From NCBI RefSeq assembly GCF_023630255.1, contig NZ_JALPRS010000001.1:744001-808000 (forward strand): a stretch of DNA of 64,000 nt. The letters are read 5' to 3'. Shown here piece by piece: positions 7,337 through 25,249 of this stretch (the first letter of the stretch is position 1; each line of letters opens with the position of its first letter). Made by a program: the position numbers and the translations under genes. Source of the stretch: Pontibacter deserti. GTDB lineage: Bacteria > Bacteroidota > Bacteroidia > Cytophagales > Hymenobacteraceae. The notes under the pieces are model-generated. The model had not been told where the DNA came from, searched no databases, and worked only from the letters and a program-made list of their open reading frames with translations.

Positions 7337-7508
7337 TTACACTTTGCTATAAACTATGTAACATGCTACTACCCACTGTTTAGATAATGCTGTATACGCA
7401 GGCGCGTTTTTATTTAAGTAACTATGGGGCAATTTGTTACCAGAAGCTATGTATTGTTTGTTAACTCTTGCCTTCTGTTTAAAGTATAAAAATAGATAAA
7501 CCGAAGCT

Positions 7509-7982: not shown

Positions 7983-8040
7983 TTCTAGAGTTGAAAGTAT
8001 AGGCTTACTGATTCCAGGAAGTCGTGTTTTATAGAAACTG

Positions 8041-8092
8041 TAGCCCAACCACCCCCGGCCCCTCCTTGTCTAAGGCGGGGAGCTTTTCTTTT
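8041..8092 (+). repeat. Hairpin repeat family A, left copy of DUF559 element 1
   Basis: The sequence starts CCCAACCACCCCCGGCCCC and ends AAGGCGGGGAGC. The central part (CCCCTCCTT, four-base loop, AAGGCGGGG) folds into a hairpin with one mismatch. The same sequence recurs inverted at 8521-8570. Read on the other strand, the hairpin is followed by the GGGGTGGTTGG box seen in all family A copies. Confidence 0.85.
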
Positions 8093-8168
8093 TCTTACTT
8101 CTTGAACTTTCTGGTTTATAGTAGGCTTTCTTCATTGCGGATGTATAGATTAAAATACGGTTAACGTG

Positions 8169-8522
8169 ATGTTGCACAACAGGAAGTACCTCAAAGAAAA
8201 TAGAAAAATGCTGAGGAGTAATCTAACTCCTGCAGAAGCGGAATTGTGGAAGCACCTGAAATCTTCTCAACTATACGGTCGCAAATTCAGACGGCAACAC
8301 AGCATCGGCAACTTTATACTAGATTTTTACTGCCCTTCTGAAAAACTTGCCATAGAGCTTGACGGGCAAATACATGTCCATTCCGCAGCATAACAAAGTG
8401 ATATAGAACGTGATCAGGCTCTTAAAGAATTAGGCATCGAAGTACTCCATTTCGAAAATAAAGATGTATTTGATAACCTGGAGGCAGTACTACAAGAGAT
8501 CAGCAACCACTTCAGTAAGTAA
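8169..8522 (+). pseudogene. DUF559 (Vsr-like nuclease) gene broken by an in-frame stop
   Basis: I start this at the ATG at 8169, which matches the intact relative at 24633-24986; a GTG lies three bases earlier. The frame encodes the DUF559 fold with its LTPAEAELWKHLK, FRRQHSIGNFILDFYC and AIELDGQIHVH segments. A TAA at 8391-8393 stops it right after HSAA. The same frame then continues without a shift (SDIERDQALKELGIEVLHFENKDVFDN...) to a TAA at 8520-8522, matching the rest of the intact protein. So one nonsense change disables an otherwise complete gene. The PD-(D/E)XK-type acidic residues (VDFYC-like D and ELDG) lie before the stop. It sits between inverted family A repeats. Confidence 0.85.
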
Positions 8523-8570
8523 GAAAAGCTCCCCGCCTTAGACAAGGAGGGGCTGGGGGTGGTTGGACCA
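8521..8570 (-). repeat. Hairpin repeat family A, right copy of DUF559 element 1
   Basis: This is a nearly exact inverted copy of 8041-8092: AAGCTCCCCGCCTTAGAC, then AAGGAGGGGCTGGGGGTGG, then TTGGACCA. It begins at the stop codon of the broken DUF559 gene. Together the two copies bound a unit of about 530 bp. Confidence 0.85.
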
Positions 8571-8633
8571 TCGCAACTATAAAACAACTAAGTAAAAAAA
8601 GTAAACTACAAGCCCACAACAGCAACTATAATC

Positions 8634-9710
8634 TTACTTCAAAATGATGCCTGTTGTATCTGCGTCCTTAAAGCTGGAATCACTCAAGTAACGGACATTT
8701 CTAAGGTCAGCGCCCCGTAGCCTGGCTTTACTGAACCTTACACCTCTTAAGTTGGCGCCTCTCAGATCGGCACTATCTAAATTGGCTTCTTCTAAATAAG
8801 CTTCCATTAAAAAAGCGTTCTGTAAGTCTGCACCTTTCAGTATAGCTCTGGTAAGGTCTGCGCCTTCTAAAATGGCATGCGTTAATTTTGCACCCCTTAA
8901 GTCGGCATCGTATAGTTTAACACCGCGCATATCCGTCAGCGACAGATCGGCGCCTCTTAGCTTAGCCGCATTCATATCAGCGCTATCCAGCTTCGCGAAT
9001 TGCAGGAAAGCAGCACTCAGGTCAGCTAACTGGAAATAAGCCTGGCTTAACCTGGCCTCACTCAGGTTAGCTTTAACAAGGCTGGCCCCCGTAAAAAATA
9101 CACCTTTGGCATTTATAAATGATAGATCGGCGTTGTCGAGTTTAGCACCCTGCAGCCTGGCATGTCTTATAAACGAACCACTTAATTTGGCTCCACTCAG
9201 ATTTGCACTATCTAAAACCGCATTGTTCAGCTCAGAGTTTAAAAGGTTGGTATTGCTCAGGTTTGCCTTCACCAGTTTAGCATTCGACAGATCGGCTCCG
9301 TACAGGTTAGCACCTTTCAGATCAATTCCTTCGAAAAAGCCATATTCCCCGTTCAATCCCCGAAGATCAACACCTTCCTGGTGCAGAAATTTAAGAGCCT
9401 CCATGCGTCCGCCCCCTTTTTCAAGCAGTATGGTCCAGTTCTCGCGTATAATAGCCCGCCTACGGCTTGGCGCCTCAGTAAACCAGATAATGATAGCGAG
9501 AAGTACGGCCAGTCTTCCGACATACTTCAGCATCACAAAAAAAGCGAGGTGGCTTATCCAGTAAGCGATCCATCCAAATGCCCACTCCAGCCATTGAATC
9601 GGAGCTACCCAAAAAGAACCGTTCCGGGGTTTAACAGGCTTTGTAACTTCTCTCTTACTCATTTCAGGATCAGGTGCTTGTACTTTAGCTATACTTGGTT
9701 GCATGGCCAC
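8634..9710 (-). CDS. Membrane-anchored pentapeptide-repeat protein
   Basis: The 358-residue protein has a polar N-terminus, then hydrophobic segments at about 33-85 (WLEWAFGWIAYWISHLAFFVML and GRLAVLLAIIIWF), a short linker, and from about residue 112 onward some 45 tandem pentapeptides of the A(D/N)LxG type (GADLSNAKLVKANLSNTNLL and so on). Such repeats form a right-handed quadrilateral beta-helix. Family roles range from DNA mimicry (Qnr, MfpA) to scaffolding. The helix here would be held at the inner membrane, so a scaffold role is more likely than gyrase protection. A family A repeat ends 63 bp beyond its 3' end. Confidence 0.85.
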   Translation of the reverse strand: MAMQPSIAKVQAPDPEMSKREVTKPVKPRNGSFWVAPIQWLEWAFGWIAYWISHLAFFVMLKYVGRLAVLLAIIIWFTEAPSRRRAIIRENWTILLEKGGGRMEALKFLHQEGVDLRGLNGEYGFFEGIDLKGANLYGADLSNAKLVKANLSNTNLLNSELNNAVLDSANLSGAKLSGSFIRHARLQGAKLDNADLSFINAKGVFFTGASLVKANLSEARLSQAYFQLADLSAAFLQFAKLDSADMNAAKLRGADLSLTDMRGVKLYDADLRGAKLTHAILEGADLTRAILKGADLQNAFLMEAYLEEANLDSADLRGANLRGVRFSKARLRGADLRNVRYLSDSSFKDADTTGIILK

Positions 9711-9885
9711 AGTTGCATTCAGAATTTAAGAAAAACACCCGGTTTTGATTTGCCCTGCCACCCATCTCTGCTTACCTTTAGGCAACGTACAATGCTAATG
9801 CCAGAGACTTTTGGACTGGCAACAGCCTTGTTTTGAAACTAAAAAGGCTCCGGATGCGTGCTATCTTCCTTCTAAACACTACCCT

Positions 9886-10515
9886 ATGGATAAACCTGTA
9901 CAGTTAAATATTCCTATTACAGTTTCTTATTCTGCCCTGGAAAGTGTGCTGCAACAGCAGCTGGTGGGGATGTATATCCCCAGGCCTGAAGATGGCATAA
10001 CAGAAAACCCATATGCGCAGGTACTGGAGGTAGGTATAACAGGAAGCAGGGCAGGGGCCTATAACGTGCAGCTACGGGTGCAGCTCAGAATTTTGCGTAC
10101 CGTGCTGAAGCGCGATAAGGTCGATATTTATACTTCGGTGGCACTGGCCTATGATAATACCACACAGCAGGTATATGTGCAGCAGTTTTCGATGGAGTCT
10201 GCTACAACAAGTGGTTTTTACAACACAGCCCTTGAGGTGTTGGTAAATAAGGTAGCCTATAACCAGATCATTGAAAAGGCCCGGATTGACCTGAAATCCA
10301 TTATTACACCGGAACTGGAAAAAGTGAACAACCAGCTAGCGGAGGGCCTGGAACTGAAAGGACTGAAACTGAAAGGTGCTGTTGAGGCGGTAACGGTGCA
10401 GGACATTGTTCCGAAGCCCGACGGGCTTTCTCTTCGGGTGCTGGCACAAGGTAACCTGGAGGTAGTGGTACAGGATCTTACCAGTTTCTTGCCACTGTTA
10501 GCAGGGAAAGTATAA
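9886..10515 (+). CDS. DUF4403-like protein
   Basis: I start this at the ATG at 9886 (MDKPVQLNIPITVSYSALES); the upstream frame to 9811 is open but looks non-coding. The 209-residue product has the DUF4403 opening (LNIPITVSYSALESVLQQQL), a beta-rich middle (VQLRVQLRILRT..., VDIYTSVALAYDNTTQQVYV), a helix of charged repeats (ITPELEKVNNQLAEGLELKG) and a final strand-rich part. No signal peptide is visible, although DUF4403 proteins are often envelope lipoproteins with a tubular lipid-binding look. Function is unknown. Confidence 0.55.
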   Translation: MDKPVQLNIPITVSYSALESVLQQQLVGMYIPRPEDGITENPYAQVLEVGITGSRAGAYNVQLRVQLRILRTVLKRDKVDIYTSVALAYDNTTQQVYVQQFSMESATTSGFYNTALEVLVNKVAYNQIIEKARIDLKSIITPELEKVNNQLAEGLELKGLKLKGAVEAVTVQDIVPKPDGLSLRVLAQGNLEVVVQDLTSFLPLLAGKV

Positions 10516-10768
10516 AGCAACAGTAACGCATTTAATAGCGACGGCGGGAGAGGAAGGTAGGTGGTATTATAGTGGGGCCACAGTAGCTATAAAATTATAG
10601 TTAATTTTGCTCAGAAGCTGCCCCCATTAACCTTAAATACATCCGGAAAAACTACAGGCATACGTATATATTTCTGTAAGCTACTGTTTTACAAAAGACA
10701 GAGAAGCTGCTTAACTTTAGTTACCTGGGCTGCTATAGCACAGAGCCGATACCTGGATTCTATTCAAG

Positions 10769-11602
10769 ATGAAACCTATGGATGTTTTTGTTCTGGTGAT
10801 AAAATATAGCCACCAGGGGCAGGACGAGGTGCTGTACCCTGTTTTGCTCCGTAGCGACAGCGAGCTTGTGTTGGTCGACTGCGGCTATGCCGGTTCTTTG
10901 CCCTTGCTGCAGGAAGCCGCCAACAAATACGGACTCTCATCTGATAACCTTACAGGTATTATCATCACCCATCACGACATCGACCACATGGGCGGCCTGA
11001 AGGAGCTGAAAGCGGCATATCCTAAAGTAAAAGTATACGCATCCGAAACAGAAGCACCTTATATCAGTGGCAGAAAGAAATCGCTCCGGCTGCAGCAGGC
11101 AGAGGCGCTGTATAACACCTTGCCCGGGGAGCAGAAGGCGTGGGCCTGGCAATTTCAGGAGTCGCTCAAAGCGGTGCAGCCTGTTAACGTAGATGTGGTG
11201 CTGACGGAAAAGGAAGTGCCTGCTTCCTGGGGTAATATCCAAATTATACCTACGCCGGGCCATATGCCGGGGCACTTTTCCATATACATCCCGCAAAGTA
11301 AAACGCTTGTTGCTGCCGATGCCGTAGTGGCAGAACAAGACGAGCTGGAACTGGCAAATCCTACCTATACCCTGAACCTGGAACAGGCAGTAGCCTCTGT
11401 TAGAAAGCTACAGCAACTGGATGTGGATCGCATCATCTGTTACCATGGCGGAGTTGTAGAAAATGATATCGGGGAGAAGCTGCAAAAACTGGTGGCAAGG
11501 TATACACCGTCACAGCCAGCACCTTTTGTTGCGGAAGAACCACAGGAAGTTAGCAGCCCCGTCTGCTACGCGCACCTGAAAGAGTTTCGGGAAGGTTTCT
11601 GA
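10769..11602 (+). CDS. Metallo-beta-lactamase-fold hydrolase
   Basis: The 277-residue protein begins with an N-terminal strand pair ending LVLVDCGYAGS, then ITHHDIDHMGG near residue 70, the TPGHMPGHFS motif, AADAVVAEQD and a final CYHGG. This is the zinc-binding set of the MBL superfamily. The usual HxHxDH is HHDIDH, a variant seen in lactonase-like and AttM-like branches. There is no signal peptide, so it acts in the cytosol. Substrates could be lactones or other esters. It is not a beta-lactamase by context: no regulator or export signal is present. Confidence 0.8.
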   Translation: MKPMDVFVLVIKYSHQGQDEVLYPVLLRSDSELVLVDCGYAGSLPLLQEAANKYGLSSDNLTGIIITHHDIDHMGGLKELKAAYPKVKVYASETEAPYISGRKKSLRLQQAEALYNTLPGEQKAWAWQFQESLKAVQPVNVDVVLTEKEVPASWGNIQIIPTPGHMPGHFSIYIPQSKTLVAADAVVAEQDELELANPTYTLNLEQAVASVRKLQQLDVDRIICYHGGVVENDIGEKLQKLVARYTPSQPAPFVAEEPQEVSSPVCYAHLKEFREGF

Positions 11603-11724
11603 GTAATAGGATGGATGTGGAGTAGGAAAGAAGTTAAGGTCGTAAATAGCTTATACTTGTAACACATCTCAGCTCCATAATTGATGTAGTCCAACTGCTT
11701 ACCTTAAATATTCCTGTGATAGTA

Positions 11725-11768
11725 GTAAGAAAAAAGGGTCCCCTTCAGGGGGCCAATAGGGGTGTTAC
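11725..11768 (-). repeat. Hairpin repeat family B, left copy of DUF559 element 2
   Basis: AAGAAAAAAGGGTCCCCTTC is followed by AGGGGGCCAATAGGGGTGTTAC. It is an inverted counterpart of 12258-12300, with a GTCCCC/GGGGAC-type stem and the GGGGTGTTAC tail. A few bases of the hairpin have diverged. Confidence 0.8.
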
Positions 11769-11818
11769 ACTCGCGTTCCCGGTAATCTACCGTGGGTAGC
11801 TTCTCATACTTACTGAAG

Positions 11819-12211
11819 TTACTGCTGATCAGCTGTTACAATAGTTTTCAAGTTCAGTATAAAAGCCTGTAATGTTCGTAAAACATTTGGCATGTCCTTT
11901 TTCACTTCCAGGTCATCAAAGCGCAGGAACCTTATGCCATACTTCTCCAGCTCAGCTTGCCTTAGAGTGTCATAATCGTAGCTATAGTTGTGACTGTCCC
12001 CATCTATTTCAACGGCTAACTTCAGTTCGTGACAATAAAAGTCAACTATAAAATCGAGTAATGGCACCTGGCGGTGGAATTGGTAGTTCAGCAGCTTCCG
12101 CTCCTTTATTACCTGCCAGAGCAGGATTTCAGAAAGGGTGCTGTTTTTTCGTAGCTCTCTGGCTTTAGCTTTCAGGTCTTCTCTGTAGGGGATGATGTCG
12201 TTCTTACTCAA
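11819..12211 (-). CDS. DUF559 (Vsr-like PD-(D/E)XK) protein, copy 2
   Basis: This intact 130-residue protein has the DUF559 layout: an N-terminal basic helix (EDLKAKARELRKNSTLSEILLWQ), YQFHRQVPLLDFIVDFYC, then LAVEIDGDSH and a C-terminal RFLRFDDLEVKKDMPNVLR. The VDFYC aspartate and the EIDG acidic pair are the expected metal ligands of this restriction-endonuclease-like fold, which is related to the very-short-patch repair nuclease Vsr. The gene lies between inverted family B hairpins. It is a recent duplicate of 14201-14608: the proteins are almost identical up to the last dozen residues, and about 90 bp of upstream DNA is also shared. Possible roles are mobilising its flanking repeats, DNA repair or restriction; none is shown. 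Confidence 0.85.
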   Translation of the reverse strand: MSKNDIIPYREDLKAKARELRKNSTLSEILLWQVIKERKLLNYQFHRQVPLLDFIVDFYCHELKLAVEIDGDSHNYSYDYDTLRQAELEKYGIRFLRFDDLEVKKDMPNVLRTLQAFILNLKTIVTADQQ

Positions 12212-12257
12212 AGTGCAGTTGCTTTAGAGTTAAAGTCATTTGCGCTTCTCAACAAAA

Positions 12258-12300
12258 GTAACACCCCTATAGTCCCCTCAAGGGGACAGTTTTTTTCTTA
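12258..12300 (+). repeat. Hairpin repeat family B, right copy of DUF559 element 2
   Basis: GTAACACCCCTATAGTCCCC is followed by TCAAGGGGACAG and a T-run. The stem is GTCCCC/GGGGAC. Read on the minus strand, the hairpin is followed by the box AGGGGTGTTAC. Almost the same sequence occurs at 14655-14697 upstream of the duplicate gene. Confidence 0.85.
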
Positions 12301-12380
12301 CTATTATCATAGAAATCTCTTGTAGCAACATCTACTAATTATTAGCTACGAAGTAACTCATTCCACTATGACCAAAAGCC

Positions 12381-12475
12381 GGACTGTCCCCTTGAGGGGA
12401 CTAGAGGGGTGTTGAAGCGGCAACTATAGAACTATACTTCCAACTAAAGCAATAGCCGGATTGTCCCCTTGAGGA
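12381..12475 (-). repeat. Two extra family B hairpins without a gene
   Basis: GGACTGTCCCCTTGAGGGGA followed by CTAGAGGGGTGTTGAAG (12381-12416) is a full inverted family B unit. A second, truncated one (GGATTGTCCCCTTGAGGAC, 12457-12475) lacks the GGGGTG tail. Between them is ACTATAGAACTATACTTCC. These show that family B exists apart from a nuclease gene. Confidence 0.75.
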
Positions 12476-12678
12476 CAAGTGAGAACGGGAGTTCGAAACT
12501 TGCGACCGCAGGTCATTGCGTATAATCGTGCACGAGAAAAAGCTCCCTTTCCTGTTTTAGGGTTAAATACCCACGATAAGAGGTAGAGGCAGGGAAGTTA
12601 AACCAGGCAACTATAGAACGGTAACCGGTAACGAAACGAAGGCTGAAGAACTCCTTGCCTTGCTGATAAAAAGAAACC

Positions 12679-13857
12679 TTATACTTCCGCCGGAAAGTAT
12701 AGCCTGAACTCTGTACCTTTATCTTCTTCGCTTTCAACTTCTATTTTACCTCCGGCATTCTCCAGTATGCGTTTTACCATGTACAGCCCAATGCCAGTGC
12801 CTTCCGCGTGGTTATGAAATCGCTTGAACATGGTGTATAGCTCCTTTTGCTGGCGACCATTTATACCCATGCCGTTGTCTCTTATACTTAGCACCACATA
12901 AGGCTCCTCCAGGCGCGAGGATAAAGTAATAATACATTCTCGGTCCGGAGACTGAAATTTGATGGCATTGCTGAGCAGGTTATACAAAATACTGCGGAAG
13001 TTTTTGCGGGAGAATTTCAGTATGTTCACCTGGAAATCAGTGTGTATAAAGCAGTCTTTCAGGTTGGCAGGTTTGTGCAGGTCCGCCATAATCTCTTCGT
13101 ACACTTCCTTGATCGTGATCACTTCATCCGAAACACTTTCGCTGAGGCCTTTATGCATGCTGTTGATCTCGGTCAGGTCTACTATGGTACGTTTAAAACG
13201 GTTCACAGAGTCCACCACCCGATGCAGGATCTCTTCCGTTGCACTGTTCAGGGCGTTAGCCGCTTCCAGTTCATTTTTCAGAATATGCATCAACCCTTCT
13301 ATGTTCAGGATAGGGGAATGGAGGTCGTGGGAGGCTGTGTAAATAAATGTATCCAGGTCGAGGTTGATCCGTTCAAGTTCGGTGTTCTTGAGCTCGAGCA
13401 CACTTTGTTGCCGCTCGGCCAGTTTATCCTGCAGCTCTTTCTGCTCGGTTATGTCGCCGGTTATTTTTGTAAAACCAATGTGCTTTTCATTTTCATAAAT
13501 AGGGGTGAGCTTGATGGTGGCCCAGAACAGGGAGCCGTCCTTCCGCTTGCGCCAGTCTTTGGTTTCATAAAGGCCATCTTCTAAAGCAGATTTCAATTCT
13601 ACTTTTGGCATATCTGCCTGCTGGTACTCGTCCGGGAAAAGCATCCCAAAGAACTTCCCTACAAATTCATTCTCCTTGTACCCTTTCAGCTGCTCTACTC
13701 CTTTGTTCCAGGTTGTAATAATACCCTCGGTATCCATCGCGAAAATGGCATAATCTTTTATCTGTTCAATAAAGTAAGAATTGATCTTATCTGGGTTATG
13801 CAGTGAGTCCATTTGTAACAGGTGTTGGTTATCTGTTTTACTCTGTAACCATAACAC
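12679..13857 (-). CDS. PAS-domain sensor histidine kinase
   Basis: The 392-residue protein has one PAS/PAC domain at about 22-138 (DYAIFAMDTEGIITTWNKGVEQLKGY ... ITGDITEQ), a short coiled coil (140-165), the histidine phosphoacceptor region with ASHDLHSPI (His177) and a C-terminal HATPase with N box (LLSNAIKF), DNGMGI and GTGIGLYMVKRI. There are no transmembrane helices, so it senses a cytosolic signal. A second start at Met16 (MDSLHNPDKINSYF) is possible and gives a cleaner PAS boundary. No response regulator is adjacent, which is common for such orphan Bacteroidota kinases. Its kinase core closely resembles that of 16186-18906. Confidence 0.9.
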   Translation of the reverse strand: MLWLQSKTDNQHLLQMDSLHNPDKINSYFIEQIKDYAIFAMDTEGIITTWNKGVEQLKGYKENEFVGKFFGMLFPDEYQQADMPKVELKSALEDGLYETKDWRKRKDGSLFWATIKLTPIYENEKHIGFTKITGDITEQKELQDKLAERQQSVLELKNTELERINLDLDTFIYTASHDLHSPILNIEGLMHILKNELEAANALNSATEEILHRVVDSVNRFKRTIVDLTEINSMHKGLSESVSDEVITIKEVYEEIMADLHKPANLKDCFIHTDFQVNILKFSRKNFRSILYNLLSNAIKFQSPDRECIITLSSRLEEPYVVLSIRDNGMGINGRQQKELYTMFKRFHNHAEGTGIGLYMVKRILENAGGKIEVESEEDKGTEFRLYFPAEV

Positions 13858-13931
13858 AGGTTATGGTACTATAATCTGAAGTTTGTACTGAGGAGAGGGC
13901 TCACCGGTTACGGCCCATCACAAGAGCGTTA

Positions 13932-14023
13932 GGGAGAGCTTGTAGCTTGCACTGCTACTCTTGCTGAAAGTATAGCTGCGCGGAATTGGGAAGGTATGAG
14001 CTAAAATCCCGCTGGAGCGGGGG
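13932..14023. repeat. Decayed REP pair (RAYT-associated family)
   Basis: GAGCTTGTAGCTTGCACTGC, then a TGCTGAAAGTATAGCTGCG spacer, then a damaged right arm ending in CCCGCTGGAGCGGGGG. It follows the same order as the intact unit at 15981-16078, but neither palindrome is complete. Confidence 0.65.
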
Positions 14024-14097
14024 AGAGTGTAGAAAAAATATACCGGTTACAAACTTGCAGCATGTGCGAGGGGAGGCAAGTCGCTTCGTAGCTACTG

Positions 14098-14181
14098 TAG
14101 TCCAACCACCCCCGGCCCCTCAGAGCTACGCTCGCTACCTTTGAATTCGCGTTCTCGGTAGTCTAAGGCGGGGAGCTTTTT
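14098..14181 (+). repeat. Hairpin repeat family A (long form), left copy of element 3
   Basis: CCAACCACCCCCGGCCCCTC is followed by an insert carrying AGAGCTACGCTCGCTACC and GAATTCGCGTTCTCGGTAG, then CTAAGGCGGGGAGCTTTT. The inverted counterpart at 14811-14894 has the same insert. It is about 30 bp longer than the copies at 8041 and 8521. Confidence 0.85.
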
Positions 14182-14223
14182 ACCTCACCCCGGCCCTCTC
14201 CTAAAAACAGGAGAGGGAGCTTT
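14181..14223 (+). repeat. Hairpin repeat family C, overlapping the DUF559 3' end
   Basis: TACCTCACCCCGG is followed by a perfect 9-bp stem (CCCTCTCCT, loop AAAAAC, AGGAGAGGG). An inverted partner with GGGCTGGGGTGAGGTA lies at 14977-15013. The unit runs into the last codons of the minus-strand DUF559 gene and supplies its new C-terminus and stop. Confidence 0.8.
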
Positions 14224-14608
14224 GATTTATTGTTATCGTAGCTTTGAAGTTCAGTATAAATTCCTGTAGTGTTCGTATTACATTCGGCATTTGCTTTTTC
14301 ACTTCCAGATCATCAAAGCGCAGGATCCTTACGCCATACTTCTCCAGCTCAGCTTGTCTGTTGCAGTCGTAATCATAGCTATAGTTGTGACTATCTCCAT
14401 CTATTTCAAATGCCAATTTCAGCTCATGACAATAAAAGTCAACTATAAAATCGAGTAATGGCACCTGGCGGTGGAATTGGTAGTTCAGCAGCTTCCGCTC
14501 CTTTATTACCTGCCAGAGCAGGATTTCAGAAAGGGTGCTGTTTTTTCGTAGCTCTCTGGCTTTAGCTTTCAGGTCTTCTCTGTAGGGGATAATGTGGTTC
14601 TTGCTCAA
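14201..14608 (-). CDS. DUF559 (Vsr-like PD-(D/E)XK) protein, copy 3
   Basis: This 135-residue protein is nearly identical to the product of 11819-12211 through about residue 120, including YQFHRQVPLLDFIVDFYC and LAFEIDGDSH. The tail differs: the other copy ends TADQQ, while this one continues as NQSSLSCF. The codons for that tail and its stop are made of the family C hairpin, so a repeat appears to have landed in or beside the 3' end. The acidic residues of the nuclease fold are kept, so the protein may be active. Families A and C on the left, and B, A, D and C on the right, surround it. Confidence 0.85.
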   Translation of the reverse strand: MSKNHIIPYREDLKAKARELRKNSTLSEILLWQVIKERKLLNYQFHRQVPLLDFIVDFYCHELKLAFEIDGDSHNYSYDYDCNRQAELEKYGVRILRFDDLEVKKQMPNVIRTLQEFILNFKATITINQSSLSCF

Positions 14609-14654
14609 AGTATAGTTGCTTTAGAGTTGAAGTCATTTGCGCTTCTCAACAAAA

Positions 14655-14697
14655 GTAACACCCCTATGGTCCCCTCAAGGGGACAGTTTTTTTTTAC
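14655..14697 (+). repeat. Hairpin repeat family B upstream of DUF559 copy 3
   Basis: GTAACACCCCTATGGTCCCC is followed by TCAAGGGGACAG and a T-run. It is one base different from 12258-12300 in the box region, and the sequence between it and the gene start is also duplicated. Confidence 0.85.
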
Positions 14698-14767
14698 TAA
14701 TATGAAAGTAATTCCAAAGAATAACCAGCTACTATACCACTACTAGCCAAGAGTAGCAACAGCAGAA

Positions 14768-14799
14768 AGTGTCCCCTTGAGGGGACTATAGGGGTGTAA
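14768..14799 (-). repeat. Hairpin repeat family B, inverted partner
   Basis: GTGTCCCCTTGAGGGGACTA is followed by TAGGGGTGTAAT. With 14655-14697 it forms an inverted pair around about 70 bp of plain DNA that contains no gene. This is what an element emptied of its gene would look like. Confidence 0.75.
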
Positions 14800-14810
14800 T
14801 CGTGCACGAA

Positions 14811-14894
14811 AAAAGCTCCCCGCCTTAGACTACCGAGAACGCGAATTCAAAGGTAGCGAGCGTAGCTCTGAGGGGCTGGGGGTGGTTGGACCAC
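14811..14894 (-). repeat. Hairpin repeat family A (long form), right copy of element 3
   Basis: This is an inverted counterpart of 14098-14181 including the TACCGAGAACGCGAATTC and GGTAGCGAGCGTAGCTCTG insert, ending GGGGCTGGGGGTGGTTGG. The near identity of the inserts argues that this pair arose or was corrected recently. Confidence 0.85.
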
Positions 14895-14937
14895 AGCAGC
14901 TATAAAACTATACTTCCAACAATACCTATATCAGAAA

Positions 14938-15013
14938 TTCCCCTCTTGAGAGGGGTAGGGGTGTGTGACTTGAGAGTAGGAGCCTTCAATAAAAGAGGGC
15001 TGGGGTGAGGTAA
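14938..15013 (-). repeat. Hairpin repeats families D and C (inverted)
   Basis: Family D is CCCCTCTTGAGAGGGG followed by TAGGGGTGTGT (14938-14968), a perfect palindrome with the same GGGGTG box. The family C partner (AGAGGGCTGGGGTGAGGTA) ends at 15013, three bases from the stop of the DUF5694 gene. Confidence 0.75.
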
Positions 15014-15015
15014 AC

Positions 15016-15885: not shown

Positions 15886-15980
15886 AGTTTGGTAGGGGTT
15901 GTTTCTGCAATAGATGGAAGCGAGGGGAGCGAGGTTGCCTGGGAGGTAAGAATTTATGGAGGCTGGGTTATTACTCCTTG

Positions 15981-16078
15981 GGCTGGTGCGAGCTTGTAGC
16001 TCGTACTGTTACTTTAGCTGAAGGTATAGCTGCGTGGAAAAGAAAGGCACGAGCTGCAAGCTCACGCCAGCGGGGGGA
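15981..16078. repeat. REP pair (BIME) of the RAYT-associated family
   Basis: The left palindrome is GTGCGAGCTTGTAGCTCGTAC (15986-16006). A 39-bp spacer containing AAGGTATAGCTGCGTGGAAA follows. The right palindrome is GGCACGAGCTGCAAGCTC followed by ACGCCAGCGGGG. The two arms are inverted relative to each other, as in enterobacterial BIMEs. It lies between the divergent DUF5694 and kinase genes. Confidence 0.85.
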
Positions 16079-16185
16079 CGAACGTAGGGGTATAAAGTTT
16101 CGGACTATAAACCGACAATGTCGAGGGGCGGAATTAATCTTGCTGTGGAATTGTGTATCTTGGAACATTAATTATCATCTACAGC

Positions 16186-18906: not shown

Positions 18907-18961
18907 GCTGATGTGGTCCTGAACGGCATCGTTGCTTACTACCGCTATTTCGACGCCTTAT

Positions 18962-18992
18962 CCCCGCTGGCGCGAGCTTGCAGCTCGTGCCT
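18962..18992 (-). repeat. REP at the 3' end of the RAYT pseudogene
   Basis: CCCCGCTGGCGCGAGCTTGC is followed by AGCTCGTGCC. The core CGAGCTTGCAGCTCG is a near-perfect palindrome. It is inverted relative to the right arm of 19611-19706, so the transposase remnant is bracketed by inverted REPs. Confidence 0.85.
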
Positions 18993-18999
18993 CCACTAG

Positions 19000-19538
19000 T
19001 CAGGCAATATCGATCTCCAGCAAACCCTTTCCGCCACTAAAATCTACCGCGCTGCTATACTTCCAATGCTCCGGCTCCGACACAAAGCCTGCTTCCACGG
19101 GGTTATTGTGGATGTATTCGATTTTCTGGTCTATCACAGCAGCGCTCCACAGCTCGATAGGTTTGTTGTGCTGCTGCCAGAACTGACGGTGTTTCACGTT
19201 GCTGTTTTTCAGGCCGGCCCGATCCATTAGCCAGAGCATCCATTCTTTCCGGCTTTCCTGGTTGTGCTCGGCAATGGCTTTTTATAGTTGTTTGGAAGTA
19301 TACGTTTTCAGCTCCTTCAGCAGCATGCTGGGGTGGTTGTCTCGGAAGAAGAGATGCACGTGGCTGGGCATGATGCACCAGGCATAGATCTCCATACCTT
19401 TGTTTTTGCGGCTTAGTCCAGGCTTTCGGTAAGCAGGGCAAAGTACTCCTCCCGCGTAAACACGTCTATCCAGTACACCACCGCAAAGCTTACAAAGTAT
19501 AGCCCCTCCTTGTGATGAAATTTATACTTCCGGCTCAT
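19000..19538 (-). pseudogene. REP-associated tyrosine transposase (RAYT), broken
   Basis: Reading leftward from an ATG at 19538, the frame gives MSRKYKFHHKEGLYFVSFAV... up to a stop at 19413-19415. Losing one base there (TAC to TA before AGCCGC) explains the break, because the next frame continues as SRKNKGMEIYAWCIMPSHVHLFF. A second lesion, a TAA at 19282-19284, follows TYTSKQL. The frame then resumes to the TGA at 19000. The His-Val-His pair of the HUH nuclease and the catalytic tyrosine in EYIHNNPVEAGFV are both present, as is the C-terminal HWKYSSA. It was a full-length Y1-type RAYT and is now inactive because of two lesions. Confidence 0.88.
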
Positions 19539-19610
19539 GTTCCTGCTTATACTTATAACAGATACGTCCGGGTTATGGGTTAGGAAAGTATGACGCTAGT
19601 GAGAACTAAT

Positions 19611-19706
19611 GCTAGTGCGAGCTTGTAGCTCGTACTGCTAATTGTGTTGAAGGTATAGCTTTGTGGAAAAGAAAAGGCACGAGCTGCAAGCTCGCGCCAG
19701 CGGGGG
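19611..19706. repeat. REP pair (BIME) upstream of the RAYT pseudogene
   Basis: The left palindrome is GTGCGAGCTTGTAGCTCGTAC, the spacer contains AAGGTATAGCTTTGTGGAAA, and the right palindrome is GGCACGAGCTGCAAGCTCGC followed by GCCAGCGGGGG. It is the best preserved member of its family in the window and marks the left edge of the AT-rich island. Confidence 0.88.
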
Positions 19707-19845
19707 TATAGATAGCTTATTATCTATTCTTGTAGAAGATGTATCTGTGTGAAAATGAAAAGGCGCGAGAAACTATCTCGCGCCAATAATAATATGTATG
19801 CTTGGACTAAAATCTGCAATAAAAGCTATACTTAAAGTTTAAGGA

Positions 19846-20133
19846 CTATGCTTCTTCTAGAGCATTTTGAATACCAATTTTTATAATAGTTTTAACATCA
19901 TTAGTAGCATTTTTCAGCATAACTCTATGGAAAAAGTCGGATGATCCAAGATCAATATATAATTTACCAAATATCTGTTTTGCGCAGAATGTAGCCATTG
20001 ATTTTATCCCATCTAAATCTACTGAAACTTCTTTGTTTTTAATAAGTTCATGTTTGATTATAGAGTAGATCTCATCCCCTGTCTCTCTATCACTTATAAT
20101 AGGTCTGTACCTATCAAGTTTTACAGTTTTCAT
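19846..20133 (-). CDS. DUF4325 (STAS-like) protein
   Basis: I start this at the ATG at 20133, whose ATGA overlaps the stop codon of the ATPase gene; a TTG two codons earlier is less likely. The 95-residue product (MKTVKLDRYRPIISDRETGD...) has the DUF4325 pattern: a short strand, a helix (EIYSIIKHELIKN), the VSVDLDGIKSMATFCAKQIFGKLY core and a final helix. This family resembles STAS domains, which bind GHKL-type kinases or anti-sigma factors in partner-switching. Overlap with the ATPase gene implies fixed stoichiometry. The low GC fits an imported operon. The target of the switch, if there is one, is unknown. Confidence 0.8.
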   Translation of the reverse strand: MKTVKLDRYRPIISDRETGDEIYSIIKHELIKNKEVSVDLDGIKSMATFCAKQIFGKLYIDLGSSDFFHRVMLKNATNDVKTIIKIGIQNALEEA

Positions 20134-21131
20134 ACCCAATTGATCTTTAAATTATAATTATCTTCCTTTGCTAAAATATCTGTAAGTCCAACAGGATTGT
20201 GAAGTGGCAAAGAAATATATACGATACTTCCTTGCCAATATCCGCATTTACCTGCATTAATTTTTCCTGCATCATTGAAATAATAACCCCCTTGCGAATA
20301 AATATGCATACGCCCACCACTTTCAGTAACTATTTGATCTAAAATCCATAGCCCAAATCCCATGTGATTTGTTCTTTTTTTAGATGTTACTCCTTTTTTA
20401 ACAGCTTCTTTTAATATTGCCTCAGGTTTAGAAATGGTATCATTTAAGACTGTTTTTAATGTGTCAATTATCCCATTCCCAGAATCAGCACAAGCAATTT
20501 CTATATGTTGTTTATTACCATTTGCAACAATTATTGAATGGGAATCTTCAACAGCGTGTTCCCAAAAGTTCAAAAGTACTTCTGAAAATACTAATAGAAC
20601 CATATCTATAATCTTTTCATCATACTCATAATACTTTTGTAACTCAGGTAGATACTCTTTATTTAATTTGTCTTTACTGTACTTATCATTCCTTAACAAG
20701 GCTTGCGGTGCAATAATAAAATTTTCACCAATGTATATTTTAAGTTTTTTGTATTCTTTTACCTTTTCACTTATTCCTTCTTCATTACTTTTTATCTCCT
20801 TTTCATCTTCATCTCTTCCTTTAATAAATGCTTTGATAAGATTAGCAAATCCAAACTTTTCAAATTCTTTATCCATAGTTTCATTTATGGAAATTCTTGG
20901 ATTCATAAAGCAAGATGATTTAGAAGTATACTCTATGAATTTATAGATAATCAGTACTCCTAACATCGATGCAGACTTAATGTTAGCCAAATTAAGTCTA
21001 AACCCCTTAGCGTTTTTGCCTGAAAGTGTAAAAACTTTATCTATATCATCTATAAATGTTTTAACAGAACTTACAGTAAAATATTTTGGTGGTGTTATTT
21101 TTTTATTGAATGAATATGTGGATGTAGTCAT
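20130..21131 (-). CDS. STAS-like domain fused to GHKL ATPase
   Basis: The 333-residue protein has a STAS-like N-terminal part (about 20-110: KVFTLSGKNAKGFRLNLANI, ASMLGVLIIYKFIE, FEKFGFANLIKAF), a charged linker and a C-terminal GHKL ATPase domain. The N box reads EVLLNFWEHAV, the G1 box ACADSGNGI and the G2 box HMGFGLWILDQIVTESGG. No phosphoacceptor histidine domain is present, so it is more like an RsbW/RsbT-type serine kinase, or a GHKL switch ATPase, than a two-component kinase. It overlaps the upstream membrane gene by 29 bases and the downstream DUF4325 gene by four. AT-rich codon use contrasts sharply with both flanks. Confidence 0.8.
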   Translation of the reverse strand: MTTSTYSFNKKITPPKYFTVSSVKTFIDDIDKVFTLSGKNAKGFRLNLANIKSASMLGVLIIYKFIEYTSKSSCFMNPRISINETMDKEFEKFGFANLIKAFIKGRDEDEKEIKSNEEGISEKVKEYKKLKIYIGENFIIAPQALLRNDKYSKDKLNKEYLPELQKYYEYDEKIIDMVLLVFSEVLLNFWEHAVEDSHSIIVANGNKQHIEIACADSGNGIIDTLKTVLNDTISKPEAILKEAVKKGVTSKKRTNHMGFGLWILDQIVTESGGRMHIYSQGGYYFNDAGKINAGKCGYWQGSIVYISLPLHNPVGLTDILAKEDNYNLKINWV

Positions 21132-21567
21132 CTAATAATTTAGCTTCCGTTTCATATTTTTTATTTTTAGGTGAAGATACAATTGATTTGTAGTAATCTA
21201 GAAGTTCATGTGTGATTCTTAATATTGGTTTTTCAATGAATATTTTATGAGATCTACTATAAGTGTCTACTTCTTGTATTTTTTCAAGTAAAAGGTCTTT
21301 ATCATGGATATCTATAAGTGATAATCCATCTAAACTTTTAAATAAGGCCTCTTGAGTTTCAATTCGTCTAGAATTTATTGTGTTAACTTTATTTATTCTA
21401 ATATCTTTTGTTTCTTTTAAGTCAGCTTTTAAATTTTCTAATTGCTTTTGATACTCATTTTTAACAGTTTCTATCTGGTTATCGAACCAAATTTTCAAAA
21501 CTACTCCAAGTAAAGCTAAAGAACTTGTTATAGCTCCTGTCATAAGAGCAAAAAGGAATTTATCCAT
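21103..21567 (-). CDS. Membrane-anchored coiled-coil protein of AT-rich operon
   Basis: The 154-residue protein has one N-terminal transmembrane segment (FALMTGAITSSLALLGVVLKIWF) followed by a long helical, Lys/Glu-rich region (NEYQKQLENLKADLKETK) likely to form a coiled coil, and a helical tail. I recognise no family. As first gene of the operon it may tether or sense at the membrane for the STAS/GHKL pair. Many defence operons pair a single-helix membrane protein with a regulatory ATPase, but that is only an analogy here. Confidence 0.7.
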   Translation of the reverse strand: MDKFLFALMTGAITSSLALLGVVLKIWFDNQIETVKNEYQKQLENLKADLKETKDIRINKVNTINSRRIETQEALFKSLDGLSLIDIHDKDLLLEKIQEVDTYSRSHKIFIEKPILRITHELLDYYKSIVSSPKNKKYETEAKLLDDYIHIFIQ

Positions 21568-21927
21568 TATATTTTACGGTTTCAATTATAAGGGAACTAA
21601 ATATTAAAACGAATATATGTAAATACTTAAAATAAATTGAAAAGTGTTTTGAACATAATGGCATTCTAATGAATGCTAGATAAAATATATGGCCTCTAAT
21701 CTTAATTAAGTTATTACAACTCATACCAAAGACATTAATTTAAAAACCATTAAATACTCTAGATTAAATAATTAGTAACAACTCTATTTAGAGAAATACA
21801 TTAATTTAAAATCTCCTAAATAAATAGTTGTAGAATTTATCATTAATTGGTTTTAGTTCTATTCCTATAGCTATAAGCAAGTACAGAAATATAACTTACT
21901 TGCATTGTTTTTTAAAGATAACTTCCC
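21568..21927. other. AT-rich intergenic right edge of island
   Basis: About 360 bp of very AT-rich DNA holds no open frame. A block ACATTAATTTAAAA occurs twice (near 21730 and 21799), a minor direct repeat. The promoter of the three-gene operon should lie in its first 150 bases. GC content rises abruptly at the HrpB start, consistent with an insertion boundary here. Confidence 0.55.
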
Positions 21928-24375
21928 TTGCCCTTCAACCCATTTACCATAGACTTACCCGTTCGGGAAATTATACCTGCTGTTAGGGAGCACCTGGCGG
22001 CGCAGAACACGCTGATCGTAAACGCACCTCCCGGAGCCGGTAAAAGCACCTTGCTGCCGCTGGCTTTGCTGGACGAGGCCTGGCTTGAGGGCCGGAAGAT
22101 CGTAATGCTGGAGCCCCGGCGCCTGGCGGCCAAAACCATTGCCGAGCGCCTGGCGCAGCTGCTGGGCGAGGAGGTAGGCCAGACCGTCGGTTACCGCATC
22201 CGTTTCGAGAACCGCACCTCAGCTGCTACCCGCATCGAGGTCGTAACCGAAGGCATCCTCACCCGCATGATCCACAGCGACCGCTCGCTGACGGGTATCG
22301 GCATCGTGATCTTCGATGAGTTTCATGAGCGCAGCATTCATGCCGATGTAGCCATGGCCCTGAGCCGGGAAGCGCAGCACACGCTTCGGCCGGACCTGCG
22401 CATCATGGTGATGTCGGCCACCCTGGACATGCCCCAGCTCACGAGCCTGCTCAAGGCCCCGGTGGCGCAAAGCATGGGGCGGCAATACCCCATCAACACC
22501 ATTTATACCGGCGACGCCGACGACCGCATGCTGCCCGAAATGACGGCCAAAGTCGTGCAGCAGGCCGCTAAGGAGCAGGAAGGCGATATCCTTGTGTTCC
22601 TGCCCGGTGAAAACGACATCCGGAAAGTAGAGATTATACTTCGCAAACAGCTGCGCGATGTGCAGATACACCCGCTGTTTGGTATGCTGCCCTTCGGCAA
22701 GCAGTACGCCGCCATCATGCCCGACCGCCAGGGCAGGCGCAAAGTCGTGCTGGCCACCAGTATAGCCGAGACCAGCTTAACCATAGAAGGCATTTCGGTG
22801 GTGGTGGATACGGGCTTCGGCAAAACCTCCCGCTTCGATCCGAAGTCTGGTTTGTCGCGCCTCGAAACGGTTCGCATCTCCAAAGACGCCGCCGACCAGC
22901 GTGCCGGTCGCGCCGGTCGCCTGGGCCCCGGCACTGCCTACCGCATGTGGAGCAAAACCACGCAAGAGCGCATGGCCCCGCACCGCACCCCTGAGATCAT
23001 GGAAGCCGACCTGTCGAACCTGGTGCTGGACATGGCGCAATGGGGCGTTACCGATATCCGGGGTCTTACCTGGCTGAACCCGCCGCCACGCGCTGCCCTG
23101 GCTTCGGCCACCGACATGCTGCACCAGCTGCAGGCGCTGGAGCATGGCCGCATTACCGAGCACGGCAAGCGCATGCACACGCTGCCCTGCCACCCGCGCA
23201 TTGCGCACATGCTGCTCAAAGCCGAAGAAACAGACCAGGTACCGCTGGCCTCCGATATTGCCGCCGTACTGGAAGAGCGCGACCCGCTGGACCGCAACGC
23301 CGGCATCGACATTAATTTAAGAGTGGAAGCTCTTCGCAGGTATAGAAAAGAGCAGGGGCAAGGCAAGCGTTTTGGCAAGATCGAGAAGATAGCCCGCTCG
23401 TACCGCCAGCTGTTTGAGGTGGAGCCAGATAACGGCACCTTCGACGAGTACGAAACCGGTGTGCTACTGGCGCATTGCTACCCCGAGCGCATTGCCTACG
23501 CCCGCCCCGGCAACAACGCACAGTTCCAGCTGGCCAGTGGGCAGTATGCCTCTGCCGGTCACCGCGACGACCTGGCGCACGAGCCCTGGCTATCTGTAGC
23601 GCACATGCACGCCGGCACCGGCGACAACCCGGGCCGTATTTTCCTGGCATCGCCGCTTAACCCGAAAGATCTTGCTCCGCTCGTAAAGCAGCAGGAAGTA
23701 TACCACTGGGACGTGAACGACGGCGAATTCACCGCTTCACTGGATACCCGCATTGGAAGTATAGTTCTGCAAAGCAAGCCGCTGCCACCTCCCGACGAGA
23801 AGCACCGTGTACCGGCTATGTTGGAGGCTATCAAAGCAGAAGGTGAGCACCTGCTGGACTTCAACCACGAACTCACCCAATGGCAAAACCGCGTGATGAG
23901 CCTCCGCAAATGGCGCCCCTCCGAGTTCTGGCCCGACGTGAGCACCAGCACCCTGCTCATGACCAACTGGGACTGGCTAAAGCCCTACCTCTACGACATT
24001 GAGCACCCCGACGAGCTGATGGAACTGGAGCTGTTGCCGATACTGGAGAAGTTTTTAGATGATGAACAGAGGGCAAGGCTGGACGTGCTGGCCCCACCAA
24101 CTATAGCTTTGCCGGATGGCTCAACTATAGAACTGGAGTATAAACCGGATGGCGCACAGCCGAAGCTGGAGATCAGATTGGAGGACGTGCTGGGCTGGGA
24201 GGAGAGCCCGAAAGTAGACGAAGGCGAGATGACGGTAGAGCTGGCATTGCTGACACCTGATCTGAAAGCTATTACTACTGTTTCTGATCTGGGTAGTTTC
24301 TGGAAGGGGAATTATAGAGTAATCAAACGGCAGCTGGAGGTGGTATTTCCGGAGGTGAGGTGGGAGAGAGATTAG
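21928..24375 (+). CDS. hrpB: ATP-dependent helicase HrpB
   Basis: The 815-residue protein uses a TTG start (MPFNPFTIDLPVREIIPAV), as there is no closer ATG and HrpB proteins begin this way. DEAH-type helicase motifs are present in order: APPGAGKST (33-41), DEFHER near 130, MSATLD near 170, TSIAETSLTIEG and QRAGRAGR near 330. The long C-terminal region typical of HrpB (EFWPDVSTSTLLMTNWDWLKPYL) follows. It is a DExH RNA/DNA helicase family member of poorly known role. It is GC-rich compared with the island to its left and carries several AACTATAG/AAGTATAG motifs in frame. Confidence 0.92.
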   Translation: MPFNPFTIDLPVREIIPAVREHLAAQNTLIVNAPPGAGKSTLLPLALLDEAWLEGRKIVMLEPRRLAAKTIAERLAQLLGEEVGQTVGYRIRFENRTSAATRIEVVTEGILTRMIHSDRSLTGIGIVIFDEFHERSIHADVAMALSREAQHTLRPDLRIMVMSATLDMPQLTSLLKAPVAQSMGRQYPINTIYTGDADDRMLPEMTAKVVQQAAKEQEGDILVFLPGENDIRKVEIILRKQLRDVQIHPLFGMLPFGKQYAAIMPDRQGRRKVVLATSIAETSLTIEGISVVVDTGFGKTSRFDPKSGLSRLETVRISKDAADQRAGRAGRLGPGTAYRMWSKTTQERMAPHRTPEIMEADLSNLVLDMAQWGVTDIRGLTWLNPPPRAALASATDMLHQLQALEHGRITEHGKRMHTLPCHPRIAHMLLKAEETDQVPLASDIAAVLEERDPLDRNAGIDINLRVEALRRYRKEQGQGKRFGKIEKIARSYRQLFEVEPDNGTFDEYETGVLLAHCYPERIAYARPGNNAQFQLASGQYASAGHRDDLAHEPWLSVAHMHAGTGDNPGRIFLASPLNPKDLAPLVKQQEVYHWDVNDGEFTASLDTRIGSIVLQSKPLPPPDEKHRVPAMLEAIKAEGEHLLDFNHELTQWQNRVMSLRKWRPSEFWPDVSTSTLLMTNWDWLKPYLYDIEHPDELMELELLPILEKFLDDEQRARLDVLAPPTIALPDGSTIELEYKPDGAQPKLEIRLEDVLGWEESPKVDEGEMTVELALLTPDLKAITTVSDLGSFWKGNYRVIKRQLEVVFPEVRWERD

Positions 24376-24450
24376 TTTAGGAGTTTGTGAGTTAGAGAGT
24401 TTAGGAAGTTATTTCAGACCCTTAATGTCTGGCTGATTGTTTTATAGTTG

Positions 24451-24500
24451 CTGTGGTCCAACCACCCCTGCCCCTCCTTATCCAAGGAGGGGAGCACTTT
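24451..24500 (+). repeat. Hairpin repeat family A, left copy of DUF559 element 4
   Basis: GGTCCAACCACCCCTGCCCC is followed by TCCTTATCCAAGGAGGGGAG. The hairpin CCCCTCCTT/AAGGAGGGG is perfect here, which supports the folding proposed for the whole family. An inverted partner lies at 25061-25140. Confidence 0.85.
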
Positions 24501-24632
24501 CCTTGCTAGTTCAAAAGTAGTGACAATGTAGCTGCTGTATTATTATTTATTTGTTACTACAGGCTTCTATTGTTGAAGGTATATTCTGCACAACCAGATT
24601 TATTTATTCAGCTTTGTAGCTTTGACATATAC

Positions 24633-24986
24633 TTACCTGTTGAAGCAATTGCTTATTTCCCGAAGTATGGCGTTTAGGTTTTCGAATACTTCTTTGTTTT
24701 CGAAGCGTAGCACCCGGATATTAAGATTTCTCAGGTATTGGTCACGTTCTTGGTCGGCTTGTTCAGCTGCGGCATGGTTATGTACTTGTCCGTCAAGTTC
24801 GATAGCTAATTGCTCAGAAGGGCAGTAGAAGTCAAGTATATAGTTTCCAACACTGTGCTGACGCCTGAACTTTTTTTCCATGAGATTACCACCCTTCAAA
24901 TGTTTCCACAATTCTGCTTCAGCAGGAGTTAAGCTGCCACGTAATGCTTGTTGGTTAGCTTTTAAGTATCTGCGGTTATGTAGCAT
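24633..24986 (-). CDS. DUF559 (Vsr-like PD-(D/E)XK) protein, copy 4
   Basis: This intact 117-residue relative of the broken gene at 8169-8522 reads LTPAEAELWKHLKGGNLMEK, FRRQHSVGNYILDFYC, LAIELDGQVHNH, then NIRVLRFENKEVFENLNAIL. The aspartate in LDFYC and the ELDG pair are the expected metal-binding residues, and the HNH-like HNHAAA stretch is conserved between the two copies. It belongs to a different subfamily from copies 2 and 3, yet it is also enclosed by inverted family A hairpins. The upstream repeat ends 75 bp before the start codon, close to the distance seen for copy 1. Confidence 0.85.
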   Translation of the reverse strand: MLHNRRYLKANQQALRGSLTPAEAELWKHLKGGNLMEKKFRRQHSVGNYILDFYCPSEQLAIELDGQVHNHAAAEQADQERDQYLRNLNIRVLRFENKEVFENLNAILREISNCFNR

Positions 24987-25060
24987 TACATAATTACCTA
25001 GAATGGGTATAAGTGTAAAAAGTCTATTAAACGAGAGAAATTAAAGGAAGTAATGGCAGT

Positions 25061-25140
25061 AGCTCCCCTCCTTGGACTACCGAGAAGAGATTTCGAAGGT
25101 AGCGAGCGTAGCTCTGAGGGGCAGGGGTGGTTGGACCACA
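25061..25140 (-). repeat. Hairpin repeat family A (long form), right copy of element 4
   Basis: AGCTCCCCTCCTTGGACTAC is followed by CGAGAAGAGATTTCGAAGG, then TAGCGAGCGTAGCTCTGAGG and GGCAGGGGTGGTTGGACCA. It has the same type of insert as 14811-14894 but partly diverged. The left partner at 24451 is the short form, so the two ends of this element come from different subtypes. Confidence 0.85.
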
Positions 25141-25249
25141 GTACCTATGAAATTATAGGCTAGTCAAAAGCTGGAGCTGTGCGGTCCGCGAAGTATATTT
25201 TTACACCTTCTAACTTTCTAACTTATACTTTTCTAACTTTCTAAACTGC

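Follow-up and report, generated by a model that had tools for sequence, protein, structure and literature searches.

Bacterial genomes are dotted with REP-like (repetitive extragenic palindromic) hairpins, some classes of which have no known mover. In REPtrons, the gene for a REP-associated tyrosine transposase (RAYT, or TnpA-REP) occurs together with REP palindromes or terminal inverted repeat (TIR) palindromes; in the part of that account drawn on here, the TIRs of some tyrosine transposases carry the motif GGGGWSAS, and CGTC repeats apparently have no dedicated transposase (PMC3733652). Here, we analyse a 64,000-nt stretch of Pontibacter deserti DNA (contig NZ_JALPRS010000001.1, positions 744,001–808,000; hereafter, the window), in which four genes of the DUF559 family lie between inverted, GC-rich hairpins. 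We find that such hairpins enclose DUF559 genes far more often than other genes, that, within the genus, the hairpin family follows the DUF559 subclade and that the units differ between species at orthologous sites. Together with a protein family profile, these sequence comparisons suggest a hairpin-ended mobile unit in which a Vsr-like PD-(D/E)XK nuclease probably drives the spread of the unit and of its gene-less copies.

Hairpin pairs at DUF559 genes

A preliminary description of positions 8,041–25,140 of the window had placed its four DUF559 genes between inverted hairpins. All four open reading frames (ORFs) match PF04480 in a profile search and all four are enclosed (Table 1), as are the two further DUF559 genes of this 4.15-Mb, seven-contig genome (C1:24572 and C1:19365; repeat scores 73 and 63). 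The assignment of one gene had to be corrected: 14201–14608 is a D-subclade gene with its own D hairpins on one side (14655–14693 and 14766–14797), and the 93-nt A arms that enclose it form an outer pair in which it is nested.

The association was measured as an inverted repeat within 400 bp of both gene ends. In a family-level sample of 40 loci (31 from the window's genus and 9 from other genera), a pair scoring at least 50 was present at 34/40 DUF559 genes, compared with 2/356 other ORFs and 3/1676 sliding positions in the same stretches; at a score of 40 the counts were 35/40, 6/356 and 6/1676. A cross-phylum sample gave 69 usable loci of 80, the other 11 being dropped for short flanks; its record titles name proteobacterial classes, Desulfobacterota, Chloroflexi, candidate phyla, Bacteroidota, Verrucomicrobia and others. 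Here the pair was found at 29/69 DUF559 genes versus 0/155 ORFs and 2/1054 positions at a score of 50, and at 36/69 versus 0/155 and 4/1054 at a score of 40. The comparison of DUF559 flanks in other genomes with those of other genes, proposed as a check in the preliminary description, has therefore come out in favour of the association in both samples (34/40 versus 2/356; 29/69 versus 0/155). Many of the cross-phylum arms read as a stem, a few bases and then GGGTGAGGG or GGGTGGGGG; the plan seen in the four local hairpin families is widespread across phyla.

A GGGGTG box common to all families had also been described. This is a fair summary of what can be seen by eye in the arms, where the main families have the boxes GGGGTGGTTGG, GGGGGAGGT, GGGGTGT and GGGGGATGA, except that polarity varies among families: A and B carry the box outside the stem, and C, D, F and most of E carry it inside. 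When five window arms were folded as single strands of DNA, one alone (24436–24500) was clearly more stable than shuffled sequence (−14.4 kcal/mol, z −4.31), the other four having z values of −1.71 to +0.33. Across 7500–26000, no Rfam family matched at its gathering score.

Within the genus, a census of 50 genomes, 46 of them gene-bearing, yielded 123 DUF559 genes (omitting two full-length matches, one at a contig end, and low-scoring fragments). An inverted repeat was present in the 500-bp flanks of 111 of the 123 at a score of 40 and of 97 at a score of 50, and 105 had one of eight hairpin families, inverted, on both sides; ten loci that showed the E pattern and really have the A box were relabelled A. 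To exclude shared descent, one gene was kept per site cluster and hairpin family, with clusters formed by single linkage on flank similarity, which left 48 genes from 41 of the 44 clusters. Two window loci (L001 and L002) sit at different places yet share one cluster, so the clusters may be too wide. On the protein tree of the 48, the eight hairpin families need 8 changes (minimum 7), against a mean of 29.0 after shuffling, with none of 200 shuffles as low. The sole misfit is the window gene 14201–14608, which took its A label from the outer nested pair; labelled D, it brings the number to 7. At the level of sequence, and within this one genus, the tree shows that, at separate sites, each DUF559 subclade is paired with a hairpin family of its own. 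That GC-rich intergenic hairpins are common, and that some DUF559 genes merely lie near them by coincidence or shared descent, would accord with the repetition of these hairpin families in the genomes; set against the control ORFs (2/356 and 0/155) and against 8 versus 29 changes even with one representative per site cluster and family, we consider this explanation extremely improbable.

Sites that differ between species

Filled and empty sites were compared between species. An intergenic spot 3′ of one conserved gene has a DUF559 gene in 8 of 30 genomes screened and was read in 14. B units are found there in L124, L125, L128 and L129 and an A unit in L131, and in L127 an E unit seems to occupy what is left of a B hairpin. 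The other loci have gene-less A pairs (L126, L132, L138 and L141), one long palindrome (L136), a part-hairpin (L139) or nothing (L140 and L151); at one site read for this spot, the hairpins lie directly downstream of a stop codon. Differing hairpin families by species were found in 5 of 44 site clusters, including the spot after hrpB beside unit 4 of the window.

Some units lie in frame inside genes. In MetH of one genus, a hairpin–DUF559–hairpin segment is present in 3 of 13 readable loci and a short linker in the other 10 (5 of 18 loci, L191, L192, L198, L204 and L205, were unreadable by the search pattern and were not counted); the three insertions share one position and so may be a single old insertion. 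Of 21 readable loci for an AddA-like helicase, 4 carry an in-frame unit, likewise at a single position, and 17 are without it, with short linkers in relatives (9 of 30 were unreadable by the search pattern and were not counted). In three of these helicase loci (L420, L424 and L440), the boxes CCTCACCCC and GGGGTGAGG mark both boundaries of the foreign DNA. By Pfam, the DUF559 domain sits between the B12-binding domains in MetH, within the UvrD-like helicase and ahead of the DEAD domain in a RecQ; one fusion of each type (MetH, UvrD-like and RecQ) was scanned and showed neither an intein nor any other splicing domain at E 1e-5. A set of 19 loci was picked for a long frame and does not measure how frequent in-frame units are. 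Two units on plasmids of cyanobacteria are located within methyltransferase genes that form a single reading frame in relatives; at one such place there is a unit in Synechocystis, only an in-frame hairpin pair in Pseudanabaena and neither in Planktothrix.

Orthologous sites have thus been found empty, occupied by a pair only or occupied by units of different subclades, as expected from the earlier prediction that units vary in location. Read across species, this shows mobility on an evolutionary scale. The same comparisons bear on a host function, in which DUF559 would be a Vsr-like repair nuclease and the hairpins terminators, or protected or processed structures, linked to the gene for regulation. 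A precedent is the Caulobacter DUF559 protein VsrA, which, in the part of the report available to us, has a role in a methylation-dependent damage response and is tied to cytosine methylation (PMC12907096), and the hairpins just 3′ of a stop codon at one site would also suit such a role. In-frame units within MetH and the AddA-like helicase, and hairpin families that differ between species in 5 of 44 site clusters, are hard to reconcile with it, and we regard it as very unlikely. Hairpins as mere terminators were rejected in view of the in-frame insertions and the cognate match.

Two side observations concern the same genes. On a Pseudanabaena galeata plasmid (L186), the same methyltransferase gene holds a second pair of hairpins in frame (SPQPPSPKEGEGG...PLSLNGRGAGGEG). 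Two further MetH loci (L219 and L220) have a gene-less in-frame hairpin pair within MetH (in L219, PHPPAPSPPGEGG...PLPEGRGPGGG) and, additionally, a DUF559 domain fused in frame and placed beyond the C-terminus of MetH.

Gene-less hairpins and the proposed mover

Hairpins are far more numerous than DUF559 genes. The A pattern occurs in 44 of the 50 genomes, with up to 141 copies in one and a single control match overall, and the B stem in 38 of 50 with no control match. Genomes that have the cognate gene also have higher copy counts, each gene's own flanking hairpins included: the median number of A hairpins is 19.5 in the 26 genomes with an A-subclade gene versus 7 in the 24 without (p 0.0019), and that of B hairpins 6.5 in the 14 with a B gene versus 1 in the 36 without (p 0.0020). 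In the four genomes that lack DUF559, the A counts are 0, 0, 4 and 0 and the B counts 0, 0, 4 and 1; hairpins can outlive their cognate gene. Among the matches listed, close pairs have their boxes outward in 42 of 43 cases, and B pairs are spaced either 107–258 bp apart (10 pairs, with no room for a gene) or 445–504 bp apart (10 pairs; 9 enclose a DUF559 match), a pattern like that of REPINs (paired, inverted REPs). These pair numbers draw on B positions among the matches listed and on A positions from all matches of one scan and from some of the contigs listed in another, and are not a census.

Genes for Y1 (RAYT-type) transposases are present in 43 of the 50 genomes. No DUF559-type inverted pair was found within 800 bp of Y1 genes at 30 loci of the genus (0/30), which led us to reject Y1 transposases as mobilisers of these hairpins in this genus; other repeat arms, such as GCTGGCGCGAGCTTGCAGCTCGTGCC, occur at 6 of the 30. 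The window itself holds both kinds of system side by side, with a broken Y1 remnant (match 19246–19407) between its own inverted GCTGGCGCGAGCTTGCAGCTCGTGCC repeats (18959–18992 and 19675–19708). Because Y1 loci are without these hairpins and each hairpin family matches a DUF559 subclade, DUF559 is the best candidate mover.

The three intact window proteins match PF04480 at 102–105 bits, the sole Pfam match above the cut-off, and have no match to Y1_Tnp at E values up to 1. Across 10 diverse aligned proteins (from this genome, proteobacteria, cyanobacteria and Deinococcus), E28, D56, E67, D69, H73 and D82 are invariant, among others. We take the resulting E, D, ExDG and H pattern to be that expected of a Vsr-like PD-(D/E)XK nuclease; family profile and conserved residues both fit, and DUF559 would accordingly belong to this class. 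The window protein has a sequence homologue (E 1e-20) in PDB entry 3hrl, named 'Endonuclease-Like Protein'. This entry is identical, over the stretch shown, to a Neisseria protein (L108), and its record takes function no further than the name. Hairpins near the Neisseria DUF559 gene are degenerate only (score 36).

From these data, we infer the enzymatic role and mechanism of DUF559 as follows. The unit would consist of a DUF559 gene with a hairpin and its G-rich box on either side, the two copies being inverted relative to each other. The nuclease would recognise its cognate hairpin and box and cut DNA there, and repair of the break would copy the hairpin-bounded segment to a new place, either with the gene or, in trans, as a gene-less pair, an action akin to that presumed for RAYTs on REPs and REPINs. 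Copying by break repair seems likelier than cut-and-paste, because, to our knowledge, a nuclease of this type does not join strands on its own. Insertions that keep the frame would survive inside genes, and others between genes. The RAYT-like part that the preliminary description had proposed for DUF559 gains support from the flank specificity, the hairpins particular to each subclade and the varying sites with gene-less pairs, all of which held, and further from the higher hairpin copy number where the cognate gene is present.

The main rival explanation is that the pairs are spread by something else and that DUF559, as a homing-type endonuclease, invades them and is copied in by repair through the arms. 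The methyltransferase place that is a hairpin pair in Pseudanabaena and a full unit in Synechocystis could be such an invasion before and after the event; hairpins that greatly outnumber the genes, and that are present in genomes without the cognate gene, would likewise be expected. A DUF559 gene has, moreover, been classed among the EDxHD homing endonucleases, in the portion of the source used here (PMC9403480). A passenger of this kind would, however, require long co-evolution to produce the tight match of subclade and hairpin, the obvious alternative mobiliser, Y1, is without these hairpins in the genus (0/30) and hairpin counts follow the cognate gene. We judge homing unlikely, and prefer DUF559 as the mover.

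Several observations weigh against this preference. The pair is absent at 40 of the 69 cross-phylum DUF559 genes at a score of 50 and at 33 at a score of 40, and only 5 of 12 loci from named plasmid-collection records reach 40. The hairpin families were defined by the analyst from arms already seen; no pair could be assigned at 18 of the 123 genus loci, which the tree test omits, and strong support for only 5 of 45 inner branches makes the details of the tree soft. Apart from including the hairpins beside each gene, the copy counts come from non-independent genomes, and non-cognate comparisons are weakly positive (p 0.084 and 0.094). Hairpins occur without their gene in one genome (G099), which has 4 A and 4 B copies and no DUF559, and in another (G129), with 83 A copies although the census contains no A gene. 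The AddA and MetH junctions showed no target-site duplication, but the relatives compared are too diverged to provide a near-identical empty allele. The role of VsrA in Caulobacter points the same way. A single protein query, finally, matched few records in the plasmid collection (37/72,556, some of them chromosome-sized) and among phages (3/50,697). We rejected carriage by phages or plasmids as the main habit on these numbers, and a scan of viral_contigs confirmed no relative.

A wider proposal, on which we are evenly divided, is that DUF559 founds a separate autonomous class of mobile DNA in many phyla, with an origin independent of HUH enzymes, DDE enzymes and recombinases, whose nuclease would move hairpin-ended units and, in trans, gene-less pairs; many dispersed GGGGTGAGG-type hairpins, translated ones included, would then be its products. 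DUF559 units look like a little-noticed kind of mobile DNA, a finding broader than first claimed. A gene family of unknown function is now tied to a large class of hairpins, which makes the question of their mover directly testable, and gives DUF559 a function that can be tested in laboratory E. coli, where ycjD belongs to the family. The insertions in frame within MetH and the AddA-like helicase offer a new angle on how proteins acquire inserts.

Window features and comparison with known systems

Table 1 Hairpins and DUF559 genes of the window.
Feature	Position	Strand	Basis and remarks
A-family hairpin, unit 1 left arm	8025–8090	+	inverted repeat, 88% complementary to right arm; box CCCAACCACCCCC outer, stem-loop inner
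DUF559 gene, A subclade, broken by one in-frame TAA	8169–8522	+	profile match, sequence
A-family hairpin, unit 1 right arm	8521–8586	-	inverted repeat
D-type hairpin, unit 2 left arm, decayed	11730–11768	+	inverted repeats; missed by D pattern; 11710–11768 and 12258–12316 are 76% complementary
DUF559 gene, D subclade by sequence	11819–12211	-	profile match
D-family hairpin, unit 2 right arm	12258–12316	-	inverted repeat
Additional D hairpin	12383–12413	+	inverted repeat; inverted relative to 12260–12290, 92 nt between
A-family hairpin, loop enlarged, outer left arm around unit 3	14089–14181	+	inverted repeat, 97% complementary
DUF559 gene, D subclade, nested within A pair	14201–14608	-	profile match, tree
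D-family hairpin of unit 3	14655–14693	-	inverted repeat
D-family hairpin, inverted partner of 14655–14693	14766–14797	+	inverted repeat
A-family hairpin, outer right arm around unit 3	14810–14902	-	inverted repeat
F-family hairpin CCCCTCTTGAGAGGGG with box GGGGTGTGT	14939–14966	+	sequence; family also flanks F-subclade gene L006
A-family hairpin, unit 4 left arm	24426–24495	+	inverted repeat; 24426–24476 and 25116–25166 are 82% complementary
DUF559 gene, A subclade, intact	24633–24986	-	profile match
A-family hairpin, loop enlarged, unit 4 right arm	25061–25166	-	inverted repeat

A 91% match to the copy at 14231–14712 stops just beyond the right arm of unit 2. The further two DUF559 genes of the genome (G000:C1:19365–24892; L003 and L006) are of subclades C and F and lie only ~5 kb apart, so its six copies form two clusters. 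Single copies related to the repeat of the Y1 remnant lie near 15982 and 16045. Inverted repeats in 12957–18634 fall inside ORFs 12679–13857 and 16153–18906, which run in opposite directions; these look sensor-kinase-like by eye and are apparently paralogous genes rather than elements.

Elsewhere, Deinococcus megaplasmids of two species (L114 and L115) have DUF559 genes with GC-rich hairpins antisense in an hpa (4-hydroxyphenylacetate) gene cluster, and in Sphingobium (L116) a DUF559 gene with such hairpins stands between the genes for two subunits of acyl-CoA carboxylase type, antisense to them and next to a small ORF. In E. coli, ycjD (sapF-fabI; L107, L121 and L122), matched in 3365/5426 genomes, has degenerate hairpins on its right side, and IS1 interrupts it in one strain. 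The locus was discarded as an empty-site test, both inspected strains without ycjD (L119 and L120) having an efflux operon in its place.

In the open-licence literature, represented mostly by titles and the starts of abstracts, we found no link between DUF559 and hairpins, and one may have been printed earlier. Nor did a DUF559 link surface among the best matches there for palindromes with CCTCACCC, in-frame palindromes, CCCTCTCCC intergenic repeats, RAYT with Vsr or endonuclease, or endonuclease-domain proteins with inverted repeats.

Several described systems share features with the DUF559 unit. The gene-less inverted pairs of fixed polarity resemble REPINs and MITEs (miniature inverted-repeat transposable elements). 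Like MITEs, they are short inverted-repeat elements without a gene; unlike them, their cognate gene is DUF559 rather than an insertion sequence transposase. Target-site duplication was not seen among the diverged relatives compared at the AddA and MetH junctions. EDxHD homing endonucleases belong to the same nuclease superfamily, and copying by break repair is plausible for both, whereas the DUF559 unit ends in inverted hairpins, one subclade occupies many sites and the three fusions scanned contain no intron or intein domain. The palindromic elements of Rickettsia are ~150 bp long and carry no gene that we know of, in contrast to DUF559 hairpin units, which do. They too are palindromic DNA kept in frame within genes, as described in the part of the source consulted (PMC10969869).

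The closest parallel is the REPtron. In both, a single small nuclease gene lies between inverted palindromes, the palindrome family follows the enzyme (8 changes versus 29.0 shuffled, in one genus), gene-less pairs have fixed polarity and a short tag stands next to the stem. The GGGGWSAS motif given for TIRs of tyrosine transposases, in the part of the account drawn on, resembles the GGGGTGAG box of DUF559 hairpins (PMC3733652). This likeness suggests that DUF559 and Y1 enzymes may share a target, our Y1 data being those of this genus alone. The two differ in that the enzyme here is DUF559 (Vsr-like) and that of REPtrons an HUH Y1 enzyme, in that DUF559 hairpins have no GTAG or CGTC tag, and in that some DUF559 units lie in frame inside genes and the Y1 genes of the genus are without these hairpins. 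The DUF559 unit works like a REPtron, yet by neither enzyme nor tag is it one.

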